Below are positions 1 through 40,405 of a DNA stretch of 64,000 nucleotides, piece by piece. Location: the NCBI GenBank assembly GCA_028823485.1, contig JAPKBG010000002.1, positions 1 through 64,000 on the forward strand. Reading direction: 5' to 3'. Position 1 is the stretch's first letter. Every line of letters starts with the position of its first letter. Under the pieces are notes generated by a model. The model was not told where the DNA came from, made no database searches, and saw only the letters and a list, made by a program, of their open reading frames with translations. The translations under genes and the position numbers were made by a program. Source of the DNA: Methylophilaceae bacterium. Lineage in GTDB: Bacteria; Pseudomonadota; Gammaproteobacteria; Burkholderiales; Methylophilaceae.

Positions 1-56
1 TTAAGTATTAAATCTTAAGTATTAAATCTTAAGTATTAAATCTTAAGTATTAAATT
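1..56. repeat. 14-bp tandem repeat, four copies
   Basis: Four head-to-tail copies of TTAAGTATTAAATC occupy 1-14, 15-28, 29-42 and 43-56. The last copy ends in T instead of C. The array touches the window edge, so it may extend leftwards. It ends 5 bp before a Shine-Dalgarno-like AGGAG (62-66) that belongs to the broken pilT start. Its function is unknown. It could be a slippage-prone promoter spacer or simply AT-rich filler. Confidence 0.9.
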
Positions 57-72
57 ATAACAGGAGTTGAAA

Positions 73-231
73 GCGGATATTTCAGATTTGTTGGCATTTT
101 CAGTCAAGAACGAAGCTTCGGATTTGCACTTGTCCGCAGTGCTGCCACCAATGATTCGTGTTCATGGCGATGTGCGTAAAATCAATTTGCCAATCATGGA
201 GCATCCGGTAAAAAATCACATATTAAATTGA
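73..231 (+). pseudogene. pilT: pilT 5' fragment (twitching-motility retraction ATPase remnant)
   Basis: The frame encodes ADISDLLAFSVKNEASDLHL, then SAVLPPMIRVHGDVRKINLP and about 12 more residues, ending at TGA 229-231. This matches the N-terminus of PilT, the hexameric ATPase that retracts type IV pili (family start MDI(S/T)-LLAF..ASDLHLSAGLPPMIR). Homology stops after the IMEH segment at about residue 43, and the whole ATPase domain is missing. AGGAG at 62-66 is correctly spaced from codon 73-75, but that codon is GCG where the family has ATG, so the start appears to be lost. In-frame TTG (67) lies directly against the AGGAG and is an unlikely start. In Pseudomonas pilT-pilU lies near pyrC'-pyrB, so this is plausibly the ancestral site. 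An intact pilT could still exist elsewhere. Confidence 0.85.
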
Positions 232-5583: not shown

Positions 5584-6867
5584 ATGTCATTTTTCAGCCA
5601 AATACTTGCGAAAACAGGATTGCCATACGAGCTATTTGTTGGCTTGCGCTACACCCGTGCGAAACGTAAAAATCATTTTATTTCATTTATATCAATGACC
5701 AGTATGGTCGGGGTTGCGCTAGGTGTTGCTGCACTGATTATCGTACTCTCCGTGATGAACGGTTTTCAGGCGGAGCTACGTAGCCGTATTCTTGGCGTTG
5801 CTTCTCATATTGAAGTTACTGAAAACACGAATATGCTTAGCAATTGGGAGTCGCTTGCAGAGCAGGTTGATGCTCAGACTAATGTGAAAGCCAGTGCGCC
5901 TTATGTCATGGCGCAAGGGATGCTGAGCTATGGCCAGGCGGTGCAAGGTGCGTTGGTAAGAGGCGTGTTGCCTAATCAAGAGAATGCGGTGGCTGACTTA
6001 GGTAAAAACATGCGGGAAGGTCAGTTAAGTGACTTGGCTTCAGGTGAGTTTAACATCATCTTAGGGGCTGATTTAGCCTATTCTTTAGGAGTGAATCTCG
6101 GCGAAAAAGTCGTGTTGATGGCACCGCAAGGGCAATTTACCCCGACGGGTGTGATTCCGCGGATCAAACAGTTTAACGTGGTTGGTTTATTTCAAATTGG
6201 GATGTACGAATATGATGCCGGCTTGGCACTGATTCATATTGAAGATGCTGCCAAGCTTTACCGCATGGGAGACAAGGTTTCTGGTTTGCGTCTGAAGATT
6301 AACAATCTATTTGATGCGCAAGCAACGACCGCTGAGTTGAGTGAAAAATTGACGCCGTTGGGTGCCTATTACATTACCGATTGGACGCAACAACATGCTA
6401 ACTTCTTTAAAGCGATACAGTTAGAAAAGCGGGTGATGTTTATTATTCTGACGCTGATTGTCGCGGTTGCGGCATTTAATATTGTATCGACCTTGGTGAT
6501 GGCAGTGACCGATAAGCGCGCTGATATTGCGATTATGCGGACATTAGGCGCCAGCCCAAAAAGTATTATGCAAATCTTCATTATTCAAGGCGCGCTGATT
6601 GGCATTATTGGCACCTTTTTTGGCGCCGTTTTAGGCATTGTCATTGCATTGAATATTGATACCATCATCCCGTTTATTGAAAACCTATTTCATGTGCAGT
6701 TCTTATCGAAGGAGGTGTACTATATTAGCGAGTTGCCTTCAAAATTAGAATGGAATGATACGATTACGATTGTTGTGGTATCCATCGTCTTGAGTTTGGT
6801 AGCTACCCTATATCCAAGCTACAAAGCATCTAAAATCAACCCAGCGGAGGCTTTGCGTTATGAGTAG
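5584..6867 (+). CDS. lolC: Lipoprotein-releasing ABC transporter permease LolC/LolF
   Basis: This inner-membrane subunit extracts lipoproteins and hands them to LolA. The 427 residues contain an N-terminal membrane segment (around 35-60, VGVALGVAALIIVLSVMNGF), a large periplasmic domain and three C-terminal membrane segments. The loop PQGQFTPTGVIPR matches the LolC Hook that binds LolA. Only one permease gene accompanies lolD, so the exporter is probably the single-permease LolDF type rather than LolCDE. The next gene overlaps by 8 bp. The start is the first ATG, shortly upstream of the conserved YELFVGLRYTRAKR segment. Confidence 0.93.
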   Translation: MSFFSQILAKTGLPYELFVGLRYTRAKRKNHFISFISMTSMVGVALGVAALIIVLSVMNGFQAELRSRILGVASHIEVTENTNMLSNWESLAEQVDAQTNVKASAPYVMAQGMLSYGQAVQGALVRGVLPNQENAVADLGKNMREGQLSDLASGEFNIILGADLAYSLGVNLGEKVVLMAPQGQFTPTGVIPRIKQFNVVGLFQIGMYEYDAGLALIHIEDAAKLYRMGDKVSGLRLKINNLFDAQATTAELSEKLTPLGAYYITDWTQQHANFFKAIQLEKRVMFIILTLIVAVAAFNIVSTLVMAVTDKRADIAIMRTLGASPKSIMQIFIIQGALIGIIGTFFGAVLGIVIALNIDTIIPFIENLFHVQFLSKEVYYISELPSKLEWNDTITIVVVSIVLSLVATLYPSYKASKINPAEALRYE

Positions 6868-7534
6868 CATTATTCGCTGTGAAGGCTTAACAAAAACATA
6901 TACAGGCTTAGATGTTGCCGTGTTAAACGGCATTAATTTAAACATCAAAAAAAGTGAGCAGATTGCCATTGTCGGTGCTTCTGGTTCAGGTAAAAGCACC
7001 TTGCTGCATTTGCTGGGTGGTTTAGATACACCCAGTTCAGGTGAGGTTGAGTTGCTTGGTAATAACTTGAACCAATTGTCCGAGGCCAGAAAAGGTCAAA
7101 TTAGAAATGATTCTTTAGGATTTGTTTATCAATTCCATCATTTACTACCAGAATTCACTGCCATCGAGAATGTTGCGATGCCACTGCTAATTGGACGCAT
7201 GCCCCGTGAGCAAGCATTGTCAGCAGCTAAAGATATGTTAGATAAAGTGGGTATGACACACCGTGTAGAACATATGCCGAGTGAGCTTTCTGGTGGCGAA
7301 AGGCAGCGTGTTGCTTTGGCACGCGCTTTAGTCACTGAACCGGCTGCGATATTAGCCGATGAGCCGACTGGTAACTTAGATCGCGTAACGGCTAATCAAG
7401 TGTTTAATTTGTTAGTTGAAATTAATGCTGTATTGAAAACCAGTTTGGTGGTTGTGACGCATGATTTAACGTTAGCCGCTAAGATGCATAAACAGTTCAA
7501 ATTAGAAGATGGTAAGCTTGCAGCATTTTCTTAA
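6860..7534 (+). CDS. lolD: Lipoprotein-releasing ABC transporter ATP-binding protein LolD
   Basis: This is the cytosolic ATPase of the lipoprotein exporter. It is 224 residues, normal for the family. Walker A is GASGSGKST (39-47), the ABC signature is LSGGERQR, Walker B is AILADEPTGNLD, and a switch His follows in VVVTHD. It overlaps the permease stop by 8 bp (ATGAGTAG), so translation is likely coupled. The pair sits at the head of an envelope cluster that in Pseudomonas is lolCDE-comEC-exbBD-lpxK-kdsB. Confidence 0.97.
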   Translation: MSSIIRCEGLTKTYTGLDVAVLNGINLNIKKSEQIAIVGASGSGKSTLLHLLGGLDTPSSGEVELLGNNLNQLSEARKGQIRNDSLGFVYQFHHLLPEFTAIENVAMPLLIGRMPREQALSAAKDMLDKVGMTHRVEHMPSELSGGERQRVALARALVTEPAAILADEPTGNLDRVTANQVFNLLVEINAVLKTSLVVVTHDLTLAAKMHKQFKLEDGKLAAFS

Positions 7535-7562
7535 TAGACCGCTGATAGATGGACGTCACTGA

Positions 7563-7872
7563 ACGATTGTCGTAGGCTTTGTCTTGGGTGCTTGGTATTT
7601 GCAATTGCAAGCCACTTTACCATCAGCTTATTGATATTTCACTTACAAATTCTGGTCTAATTTTGAAGAAAGGTGCCAAATTGATAATTTTGATTAGGAG
7701 GGTACAGCTTTATTTAATTTAGTTGACATACAGAGTTCGCTTTTTAAAGTGCACCTACAGAAAAACAACCTCTGACATAGGGAATTATTTTATTTACACT
7801 GCGCAAAACCGAATCCAAATCAAAGCATGGCGTTCAGTTCATGCTAGGTATTCGCATGACAAAATTTTATGA
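7563..7872 (+). pseudogene. comEC: comEC/rec2 remnant: N- and C-terminal ends of a DNA-uptake channel
   Basis: The 420-bp gap between lolD and exbB holds two recognisable pieces. From 7563, 23 codons read TIVVGFVLGAWYLQLQATLP then SAY and a stop. This resembles the ComEC N-terminus, with ACG where a start ATG would be expected. From about 7783 to the stop at 7870-7872, the frame encodes NYFIYTAQNRIQIKAWRSVH then ARYSHDKIL, resembling the ComEC C-terminal AWR..(H/R)RYWHD. The frame is open back to 7723. ComEC is normally some 700-800 residues, so almost all of it, including the competence and MBL-fold domains, is gone. comEC occupies exactly this position between lolCDE and exbB in Pseudomonas. 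The rest of the gap shows nothing else. Identification is from short matches plus synteny. Confidence 0.6.
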
Positions 7873-7954
7873 AGTCTCACTTGCCGAAGTGTGCGCTTCT
7901 AAGCTAAAGTAGCGGTAGTTTTGTTTTATCTGATTTAATTAAGGAGTCTCCACT

Positions 7955-8557
7955 GTGTGGGAAATTATTGTAGCTGCAGGTTGGCCAATCTGGCCGTTGA
8001 TTTTTGCTTCAATTATTGCGTTAGCAATTATTGTTGAACGTACTTGGGTATTGCGTAGTGAAGTAATCGCACCGACTAACCTATTGCCAGAAGTGCACAA
8101 ATGGATGGGGCAAGGGGTTATCAATAAAGATAGTCTCGTTAAGCTTGAGGAGCACTCGCTACTTGGGAAAATATTTGCTAGTGCGTTAGCTAATGAAAAA
8201 AATTCTAGAGAAGTGATGAAAGAGTCTATTGAGGAAACAGGTCGTGCAGTGGCGCATCAGCTGGAGAAGTACCTTTCAACGCTTGGCACCATTGCAACAG
8301 TGGCACCCCTACTTGGCTTACTAGGGACAGTGATTGGTATGGTTGAACTATTTGGCGCTTTTACTAATTCAGGCCATGACGTTGCACAGTTTGCCCGTGG
8401 TATTTCTGTGGCACTTTATAATACGGCAGCGGGTATTGTTGTCGCTGTTCCTGCCATGATTGCTTATCGTTACTTCCGAACTAAAGTTGATACTTTATTG
8501 TTAGATATGGAGCAGCAAGCCATTAAATTAGTTGAAATTCTGCATGGTGAGCGTTAA
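7955..8557 (+). CDS. exbB: MotA/TolQ/ExbB family proton channel protein
   Basis: This 200-residue inner-membrane protein has one N-terminal helix (about 5-27) and two further helices around 110-135 and 150-175. It carries the family core LGTIATVAPLLGLLGTVIGM and GISVALYNTAAGIVVAVPA. With ExbD it forms a proton-driven motor that energises an envelope partner. The start is GTG at 7955, supported by AAGGAG at 7941-7946. It was probably displaced next to lolD by the loss of comEC. No tonB or tolA lies nearby. The position before msbA-lpxK is conserved in gamma- and betaproteobacteria, and its partner there is not established. Confidence 0.92.
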   Translation: MWEIIVAAGWPIWPLIFASIIALAIIVERTWVLRSEVIAPTNLLPEVHKWMGQGVINKDSLVKLEEHSLLGKIFASALANEKNSREVMKESIEETGRAVAHQLEKYLSTLGTIATVAPLLGLLGTVIGMVELFGAFTNSGHDVAQFARGISVALYNTAAGIVVAVPAMIAYRYFRTKVDTLLLDMEQQAIKLVEILHGER

Positions 8558-8587: not shown

Positions 8588-9004
8588 ATGAATTTTCAAC
8601 GTGGAAAAAATAACGAAGACTTAGAAATTAACTTTATCCCTTTAATTGATGTGTTGTTAGTGATTATCATCTTTTTAATCGTTAATGCGACGTTCTCACA
8701 AACGAGTGAGTTGCAAATTAACTTGCCAACGGCTGAGGCCAATACAGCTGAAGATAAGCCCTTAATGATTACTGTCGATATTGATGCATCTGGGCGGTAT
8801 ATGGTCGATGCGAAGGCGGCTGGAGCTCGTGTGGAGGACATTGCTAGTGCGTTACAAGCTGCGGTAGGCAATGGTAAAGACCCAACAATCGTGATTAATG
8901 CTGATGCAAAATCAACACATCAATCAGTGGTCAATGTAATGGAAGCCGCGCGCGTTGCTAACTACACGCACATTACGTTTGCGACACAATCAGGCGCTAA
9001 GTAA
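8588..9004 (+). CDS. exbD: Biopolymer transport protein ExbD/TolR family
   Basis: This 138-residue protein has a cytosolic N-terminus, a single membrane helix at about 17-35 starting with INFIPLIDVLLVIIIFLIV, and a periplasmic domain. The helix carries the conserved proton-relay Asp of the family (PLIDVL). The gene lies 30 bp after exbB and in the same direction, so the two surely work as one motor complex. The C-terminal domain (ITVDIDASGRYMVDAK and following) is typical ExbD. Length is normal. Confidence 0.93.
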   Translation: MNFQRGKNNEDLEINFIPLIDVLLVIIIFLIVNATFSQTSELQINLPTAEANTAEDKPLMITVDIDASGRYMVDAKAAGARVEDIASALQAAVGNGKDPTIVINADAKSTHQSVVNVMEAARVANYTHITFATQSGAK

Positions 9005-29116: not shown

Positions 29117-29166
29117 GGTGATTTAACTATTCAGCTGAATGCTTATGCTAACGGTGTGATGAGGCG

Positions 29167-29400
29167 CTAGTGTGAAATTTGAATGAGCTTGGCTTCAGAC
29201 TCACGCAGGATAATGTCAGTTGAACCGATTCTGACTTGTAGTGGGCCATTGAAGCTGGCTTTTCGCATGACTTTAATTTTTTTGCCGACACGAAAACCTA
29301 AGGCCATCAGACGCTGGTAGAGCGATTGCTCTGCTGTTGCAGTATTGATACCACTGATGGTAGCTAAGTCACCAGATTTTAAGTTGTATAGTAGGCTCAT
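29167..29400 (-). CDS. feoA: Ferrous iron transport protein A
   Basis: This 77-residue cytosolic SH3-like protein accompanies FeoB. The core reads LYQRLMALGFRVGKKIKVMR followed by PLQVRIGSTDIILRESEA, typical of FeoA. It is the first gene of feoAB. The start codon lies 19 bp from a 19-bp perfect palindrome that fits a Fur site. No feoC is present. Confidence 0.93.
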   Translation of the reverse strand: MSLLYNLKSGDLATISGINTATAEQSLYQRLMALGFRVGKKIKVMRKASFNGPLQVRIGSTDIILRESEAKLIQISH

Positions 29401-29419
29401 GTATGATTCTATTGATGCG

Positions 29420-29438
29420 AATAAGAATAGTTCTTATT
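29420..29438. promoter_or_regulatory. Fur-box-like palindrome upstream of feoAB
   Basis: AATAAGAA-TAG-TTCTTATT is a perfect 8-3-8 inverted repeat. Its size (19 bp), AT-richness and position directly before feoA match Fur operators. It differs in several bases from the E. coli consensus GATAATGATAATCATTATC. Assignment to Fur is by context. Confidence 0.7.
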
Positions 29439-29499
29439 ATTACATAGATGTTGAAATGATGTCTAGAAACATGTATGACCTATTTTAATGTGACGCCAA

Positions 29500-29531
29500 T
29501 TAAAAAGGCTTGCAATTGCAAGCCTTTTTAA
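29500..29531 (-). terminator. Perfect-stem intrinsic terminator after ppiC
   Basis: TTAAAAAGGCTTGCAA pairs exactly with TTGCAAGCCTTTTTAA (16-bp half-sites, no unpaired spacer). T-runs are present on both strands. It lies 15 bp beyond the ppiC stop and isolates the yciB-yciI-bolA-ppiC run from feoAB. Confidence 0.9.
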
Positions 29532-29546
29532 ACGATGGCAAGTAGT

Positions 29547-40132: not shown

Positions 40133-40363
40133 TAAGTAATTAATGCCATTTTAACAGCTAGCCATGGGATGTGTCGTTGTTACCTATTTTTTGGCTTTTT
40201 AATTTTTGGAATAGGCGGTTCGAAGTCAATCTGCAATTATTTGTATTGTAAAGCCATTTATTCCATAAATATTTAGTATTTAAGACTCAGAAATTGCTCG
40301 CCAGGTGATGGCTGAGCGGTATGAATGGGGGTCATGAATAGAGCGAACCATACGCATGTAAAC

Positions 40364-40386
40364 GGCAAGTGCAAGACGCACTTACC
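40364..40386 (-). terminator. Possible terminator hairpin after dapD
   Basis: GGCAAGTGC and GCACTTACC flank AAGAC, a 9-bp stem with one imperfect pair, 19 bp beyond the dapD stop. No long T-run follows on the minus strand (only GTTT), so termination is uncertain. The remaining 40133-40363 shows no gene or other signal. Confidence 0.4.
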
Positions 40387-40405
40387 ATTTAATGAAGATT
40401 GTAAA

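Follow-up and report, generated by a model that had tools for sequence, protein, structure and literature searches.

A decayed comEC reduced to its two ends between lolD and exbB in a Methylophilaceae genome, with further stages of erosion at the equivalent locus in the family

The window analysed here is a stretch of 64,000 nucleotides corresponding to G000:C27:1-64000, where G000 is the genome to which it belongs (a 1.64 Mb assembly of 30 contigs, 86% complete), C-numbers denote contigs of G000, G001-G005 are genomes of the same genus, and L-numbers are fetched loci. On the forward strand, an intact gene for a LolC/E-type permease (5584-6867; TIGR02212, 530 bits), whose protein is 84-87% identical in G002-G004, is followed by an intact lolD (6860-7534; TIGR02211, 322 bits, above the cut-off). 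After a gap of 420 bases (7535-7954), reaching from the lolD stop to a GTG start, an intact exbB/tolQ-type gene follows (7955-8557, forward strand), whose protein is 87.5-93.5% identical in G001-G004 and for which the TolQ and ExbB models match best, yet below their cut-offs. The next intact gene on the same strand (8588-9004) we take, independently of family searches, to be of the exbD type. As the neighbouring genes are open and ORFs make up 91.9% of the window, the assembly is not frame-broken in general. Other ORF-free gaps of at least 220 bases in the window are just 29117-29546 and 40133-40405, and searches for tRNAs and Rfam families gave no matches in the 64 kb. Among the best 80 of 253 relatives, the closest to the window in the tree were L029, L030 and L031 (LolC/E-type protein 85-87% identical), which are copies of G001, G004 and G002, respectively.

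The lolD-exbB gap contains no ORF reaching 80 codons, and all forward frames of 7535-7954 contain stops. Six-frame translation of the gap revealed an N-terminal ComEC peptide, FVLGAWYLQLQATLPS, at 7578-7625 and a C-terminal ComEC peptide, IQIKAWRSVHARYSHD, at 7813-7860. Profiles of both ends were made from 57 ComEC frames of at least 730 residues, all from the equivalent locus in the family, and were scanned along the window in six frames (127,906 positions). The N-terminal profile ranked 7578-7625 first with 37.0 bits (runner-up 8.8) and the C-terminal profile ranked 7813-7860 first with 28.4 bits (runner-up 12.0), and in a frameshift-tolerant alignment the score of either end was equalled by none of 80 dinucleotide shuffles. 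The 5' remnant (7563-7634, forward strand) comprises approximately the first 25-27 codons of comEC and has no start codon: its frame carries TGA at 7560-7562 and at 7632-7634, and no in-frame ATG, GTG or TTG is present between the first of these and the N-terminal motif. The 3' remnant (7813-7872, forward strand) comprises the last 19 codons and the closing TGA at 7870-7872, in a frame that differs from that of the 5' remnant; together with the bases up to 7877 it is 68-83% identical to G001-G004. An earlier note on this DNA had claimed that comEC is collapsed here to its two ends, with the N- and C-terminal signatures kept and 7872 as the last position, and these results bear the claim out, including the end coordinate, which agrees with the closing TGA.

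Between the two ends lies an unrecognised stretch of 178 bases (7635-7812, no strand assigned) with 32.8% G+C. In the frameshift-tolerant alignment no ComEC signal was detected in 7636-7812, where the score of 11.7 was equalled or exceeded by 80 of 80 shuffles, in line with the earlier statement that the channel and MBL-fold domains are gone. At the sensitivity used, an interpretation of 7636-7812 as decayed comEC is thus unsupported, its part 7700-7812 likewise being equalled or beaten by 76 of 80 shuffles, and a blastn comparison of 7635-7812 with 56 comEC regions gave, on both strands, a best E of 0.81. Several other origins of the middle were considered and rejected: a copy taken from another place in the genus (just the self-match was obtained in 6 genus genomes), an RNA (no Rfam match) and a new promoter region (promoter-like matches in the gap are at chance level, 2 versus 2.0 expected). 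Repeats or a mobile element were likewise sought at the breakpoint, and the search yielded just a direct pair of 11 bases, an imperfect inverted pair of 16 bases and a palindrome within exbB. Against the fetched loci, the best non-self match of the middle was 18 bases long (E 0.6).

Elsewhere in its own genome, PF03772 (Competence domain) gave no match in the 86% complete assembly. The sole match to ComEC_Rec2 (TIGR00361) is located at C9:87739-87957, in the metallo-beta-lactamase part, and on contig C27, which carries the window, this model gave no match. The match on C9 was rejected as a second ComEC because it is confined to profile positions 481-553; short matches resembling it are also present in G001, G002 and G004, which have comEC besides. 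In the family, PF03772 is present in 111 of 187 genomes and in 86 of the 119 good ones. The gene order, for which the earlier note had cited Pseudomonas, was examined here in Methylophilaceae, to which the window belongs, and comEC sits at the equivalent place between lolD and exbB in G001-G004: it is whole in G003, shows a frame change near residue 655 in G004 and one in-frame TAG in G002 (both draft sequence), and is spread over two contigs, one of them ending inside the gene, in G001. No comEC match was obtained in G005, which is 48% complete. In G002 (L012, ~5690-6290), about 500 extra bases lie between lolD and comEC. The comparison with the comEC of relatives and the search for another copy, both named as checks in the earlier note, thus agree with its reading of a comEC reduced to its ends, as both ends match ComEC profiles, relatives keep the gene at this place and PF03772 is missing from the 86% complete assembly.

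The locus resembles ComEC/Rec2 (TIGR00361; PF03772 with PF13567 and PF00753) in its position and in its N- and C-terminal end sequences, but the remnant in the window differs from this family in that it lacks the channel and nuclease domains, an open frame and a start codon, and it is not a working member: at the locus there is no PF03772 domain, no metallo-beta-lactamase part C-terminal to the channel and no open frame of several hundred codons. The ComEC pieces are found in gene order and on the correct strand, as in a comEC pseudogene, and the different frames of the ends, the stops and the missing start codon identify the locus as such. We have hardly any doubt that 7563-7872 is a dead comEC, descended from a full-length gene on which selection lapsed and which was destroyed by internal deletion(s) and point changes. 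The ancestor would have possessed, between lolD and exbB, a full comEC of about 800 codons, like most fetched relatives, and selection on it would have lapsed once DNA uptake by natural transformation no longer paid in the lineage. Internal deletion(s) would then have removed nearly everything from about codon 26 up to roughly the final 20 codons, point changes would have destroyed start and frame, and the ends would persist as deletions into lolD, or into the exbB promoter at 7881-7910, would be purged; relaxed selection is presumably the cause of the decay, and such purging presumably the reason why the ends were kept. With regard to the earlier proposal of a single large deletion plus point decay, the loss of start and frame stands, but a single deletion is not shown, since the ~180 bases between the ends match no ComEC and call in addition for filler, a further event or more rapid decay. 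Compared with G004, the 5' remnant is 64% identical (74 bases) and the 3' remnant 72% (65 bases), with 56% at exbB third positions; as the remnants are slightly above the third positions and the gene of G004 is nearly whole, the loss of comEC, on these small numbers, probably took place after the lineage had separated from G004. By itself the locus is an ordinary pseudogene, confirmed as such, and it is more telling within the family-wide series described below.

Beginning 8 bases past the comEC stop, a promoter-like element, on which the earlier note is silent, is present on the forward strand (7881-7910), consisting of TTGCCG (7881-7886), an 18-base spacer and TAAAGT (7905-7910). The region 7878-7954 is 84-90% identical to G001-G004, versus 51-61% at exbB third positions, and the aligned upstream regions have a common core of TTGC(C/T) and TAAAGT, 17-18 bases apart. 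This pattern, which was written after viewing the alignments so that its count is descriptive, occurs in 72 of 74 loci, including 14 of 14 eroded ones when the window is counted, as compared with 24 of 14,800 shuffled upstream regions in which base composition only was preserved; L029-L031 were omitted from this count as copies of G001, G004 and G002. It is missing in L087 and L093 and recurs at two other places of the window (8460 and 23193). By its form the element would be a promoter of the sigma-70 type, and it is probably the promoter of exbB. A promoter consensus scan of the gap did not include 7881-7910 among its matches. In L085, where the gap is reduced to 113 bases, the element lies 102 bases before exbB, and in the most eroded loci lolD and exbB are separated by little beyond the element and the exbB leader. 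As the element is present in 14 of 14 eroded loci, the erosion of comEC seems to halt at the probable promoter of exbB.

A history in two steps, in which the interior of comEC was deleted and ~180 bases of unrelated DNA came in, would refine the explanation of the locus as a dead comEC and can be held only tentatively. The ComEC signal vanishes at both inner edges, and the middle has a lower G+C (32.8%) than the 5' remnant (42.5%) and the comEC of G004 (43.4%), as such an arrival might leave; however, no donor was found among 6 genus genomes or the fetched loci, and AT-biased unconstrained drift of a leftover could give the same appearance.

The remnant might also be the product of assembly or binning, the interior of comEC having been lost through metagenome misassembly in a draft of 30 contigs and 86% completeness, in which two further broken loci (window 1-219 and C13:1-423) lie at contig ends. 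This is very improbable: a simple collapse would not yield ends that are point-decayed and out of frame with non-ComEC sequence between them, pilQ (C3) and dprA (C1) are broken far from contig ends, and comparable stages are found at the equivalent locus in other genomes. Even less credit can be given to a retention of the remnant for a new use, be it a small protein, an RNA or an exbB leader derived from the comEC ends. Such a use could be read from the conservation of the 77 bases before exbB, which exceeds that of exbB third positions as given above, and from the 68-83% identity of the 3' remnant to relatives, but conservation is strongest after the comEC stop and is present also where comEC is whole, and therefore belongs to exbB. 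In addition, no Rfam match was obtained, promoter-like matches inside the gap are at chance (2 versus 2.0 expected) and no ORF of at least 80 codons covers the ends. A dead comEC thus remains the preferred reading of 7563-7872.

Among the best 80 of 253 relatives, the lolD-exbB gap was measurable in 71 loci and could not be measured in nine (L029, L037, L040, L043, L047, L062, L075, L076 and L107). With a gap of less than 2 kb, comEC is eroded in 13 of the 71. Analysed with the end profiles, three of these 13 (L069, L074 and L091) retain both end motifs, two the N-terminal motif alone (L045 and, weakly, L084), two the C-terminal motif alone (L033 and L092), and six neither motif (L063, L067, L068, L080, L085 and L088), their gaps being 113-173 bases. 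L091 displays a clean join, in which ComEC residues 9-126 are directly followed by residues 703-791. In a parsimony analysis of intact comEC versus the rest, 7 changes were needed, at least 5 of which are demanded by well-supported branches, on a tree of LolC/E plus LolD with 81 rows, 7 of them without a state, that was obtained by a quick search without bootstrap. The frame-broken L030, L031 and L082 were scored as non-intact, and 7 changes were also needed without them; L040 and L047 were set as intact by hand because of a nearly full ComEC match after lolD, and the remaining seven of the nine unmeasured loci are the rows without a state. The count is blind to direction, gain or loss, and it is the comEC remnants at the spot that indicate loss in those loci having them. 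In Methylotenera mobilis 13 (L062, 7943-13090), comEC is interrupted by ~2.7 kb after residue 270, and residues 262-270 are matched on both sides of the interruption, as an insertion element might leave. In L078, L083, L087 and L104, ComEC is matched over nearly its full length within a gap of 3.8-3.9 kb, which holds ~1.3-1.5 kb of DNA besides.

Other genes for transformation and pili, whose state the earlier note does not mention, were compared in the same genome, pilQ, pilT, dprA and comEA being identified by family searches and the others (e.g. pilMNOP, pilB, pilC, ponA, aroK and icd) carrying names that we presume from sequence and gene order. On C1, dprA is broken by a TAA in frame and by a shift of the frame. 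The interval between ponA and aroK harbours pilMNOPQ in G003, and at that place in the own genome pilMNOP are missing and the 3' part of pilQ alone remains, out of frame (L110 4679-5566, on C3). A pilT remnant of 42 codons is located in the window at 79-204 on the forward strand (tblastn with PilT of G003: 81%, E 3e-17, across 42 residues), and it has no adjacent pilU. Next to this remnant, TRF detected a perfect 14-base tandem repeat of 3.9 copies (window 1-55) that runs into the contig end. A pilT/pilU-like gene on C5 is split over three frames, with stops. G003 carries pilB and pilC after icd. At that place the own genome retains a piece that matches PilC residues 193-320 (86%, E 4e-68) and is interrupted by two stops; ahead of it, in its frame, 14 residues resemble the PilB start, a weak match (E 6.6) that rests on its position. 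The contig then ends, and the piece corresponds to L124 1-423 (C13). The pair pilB-pilC is probably another one cut by internal deletion. Pointing the other way, the comEA gene is open through its helix-hairpin-helix part, its frame showing no ATG downstream of the preceding stop though perhaps a different start codon, and a second pilus-type cluster on C22 looks open.

As comEC and dprA are dead and pilus genes are cut down, natural transformation has, as far as can be judged from sequence, very probably been lost in this genome, and it appears to be decaying as a whole, with pilQ, pilT and dprA, and probably pilBC, broken or cut down. In G003 (2.0 Mb, single contig) comEC is whole, yet pilT and pilB contain one in-frame stop each (L113 3436-4458 and L116 1802-3523), and pili may, judging from G003, be failing before comEC in the genus.

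ComEC is the DNA import channel of natural transformation, and its role and that of DprA are described in the available text of PMC11472951. According to the available text of Pimentel and Zhang (2018, PMC6299819), whole ComEC was lost with genome reduction in endosymbionts and in most of some intracellular pathogens; the losses described here differ from these in that they concern Methylophilaceae and in that their stages are visible at a single locus. For pelagic Methylophilaceae, genome streamlining with gene loss and small genomes is described in the available text of Salcher et al. (2019, PMC6794327), where planktonic strains are said to have lost motility and flagella and type IV pili to be present in nearly all sediment strains; the 1.3 Mb given there for the most reduced forms compares with 1.6-2.0 Mb in G002-G004. 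The words "comEC" and "competence" are absent from its main text. In literature on Methylophilaceae dealing with comEC or with competence and type IV pili, as far as full text was accessible (mostly non-subscription sources), no description of such an erosion was found.

In the Methylophilaceae, a family of methanol users, one locus with fixed neighbours thus presents comEC in stages that run from whole through frame-broken, two ends and a single end to gone. With these stages visible at one locus, it becomes possible to order and count losses of transformation in bacteria other than endosymbionts, and to test in the family for a link among the loss of pili, the loss of comEC and genome size. 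We consider it rather probable that transformation has been dismantled repeatedly in free-living Methylophilaceae by a repeatable erosion, in which comEC and dprA decay after the uptake pili go and comEC shrinks down to the exbB promoter. If this is true, the family would record, as a natural time series, how bacterial sex is lost, and the window would be a middle stage of it.

A raw tally over 187 family genomes gave 107 with comEC and dprA, 4 with comEC only, 24 with dprA only and 52 with neither, and serves as a lead and not as a test, as kinship is ignored, the drafts vary in completeness and the matches include broken genes; accordingly, the own genome, in which dprA is broken, counts among the 24 dprA-only genomes. 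In G046, a genome of 2.6 Mb and 90% completeness from a different genus of the family, both comEC and dprA were matched only in pieces, with stops, possibly a parallel case of joint decay.
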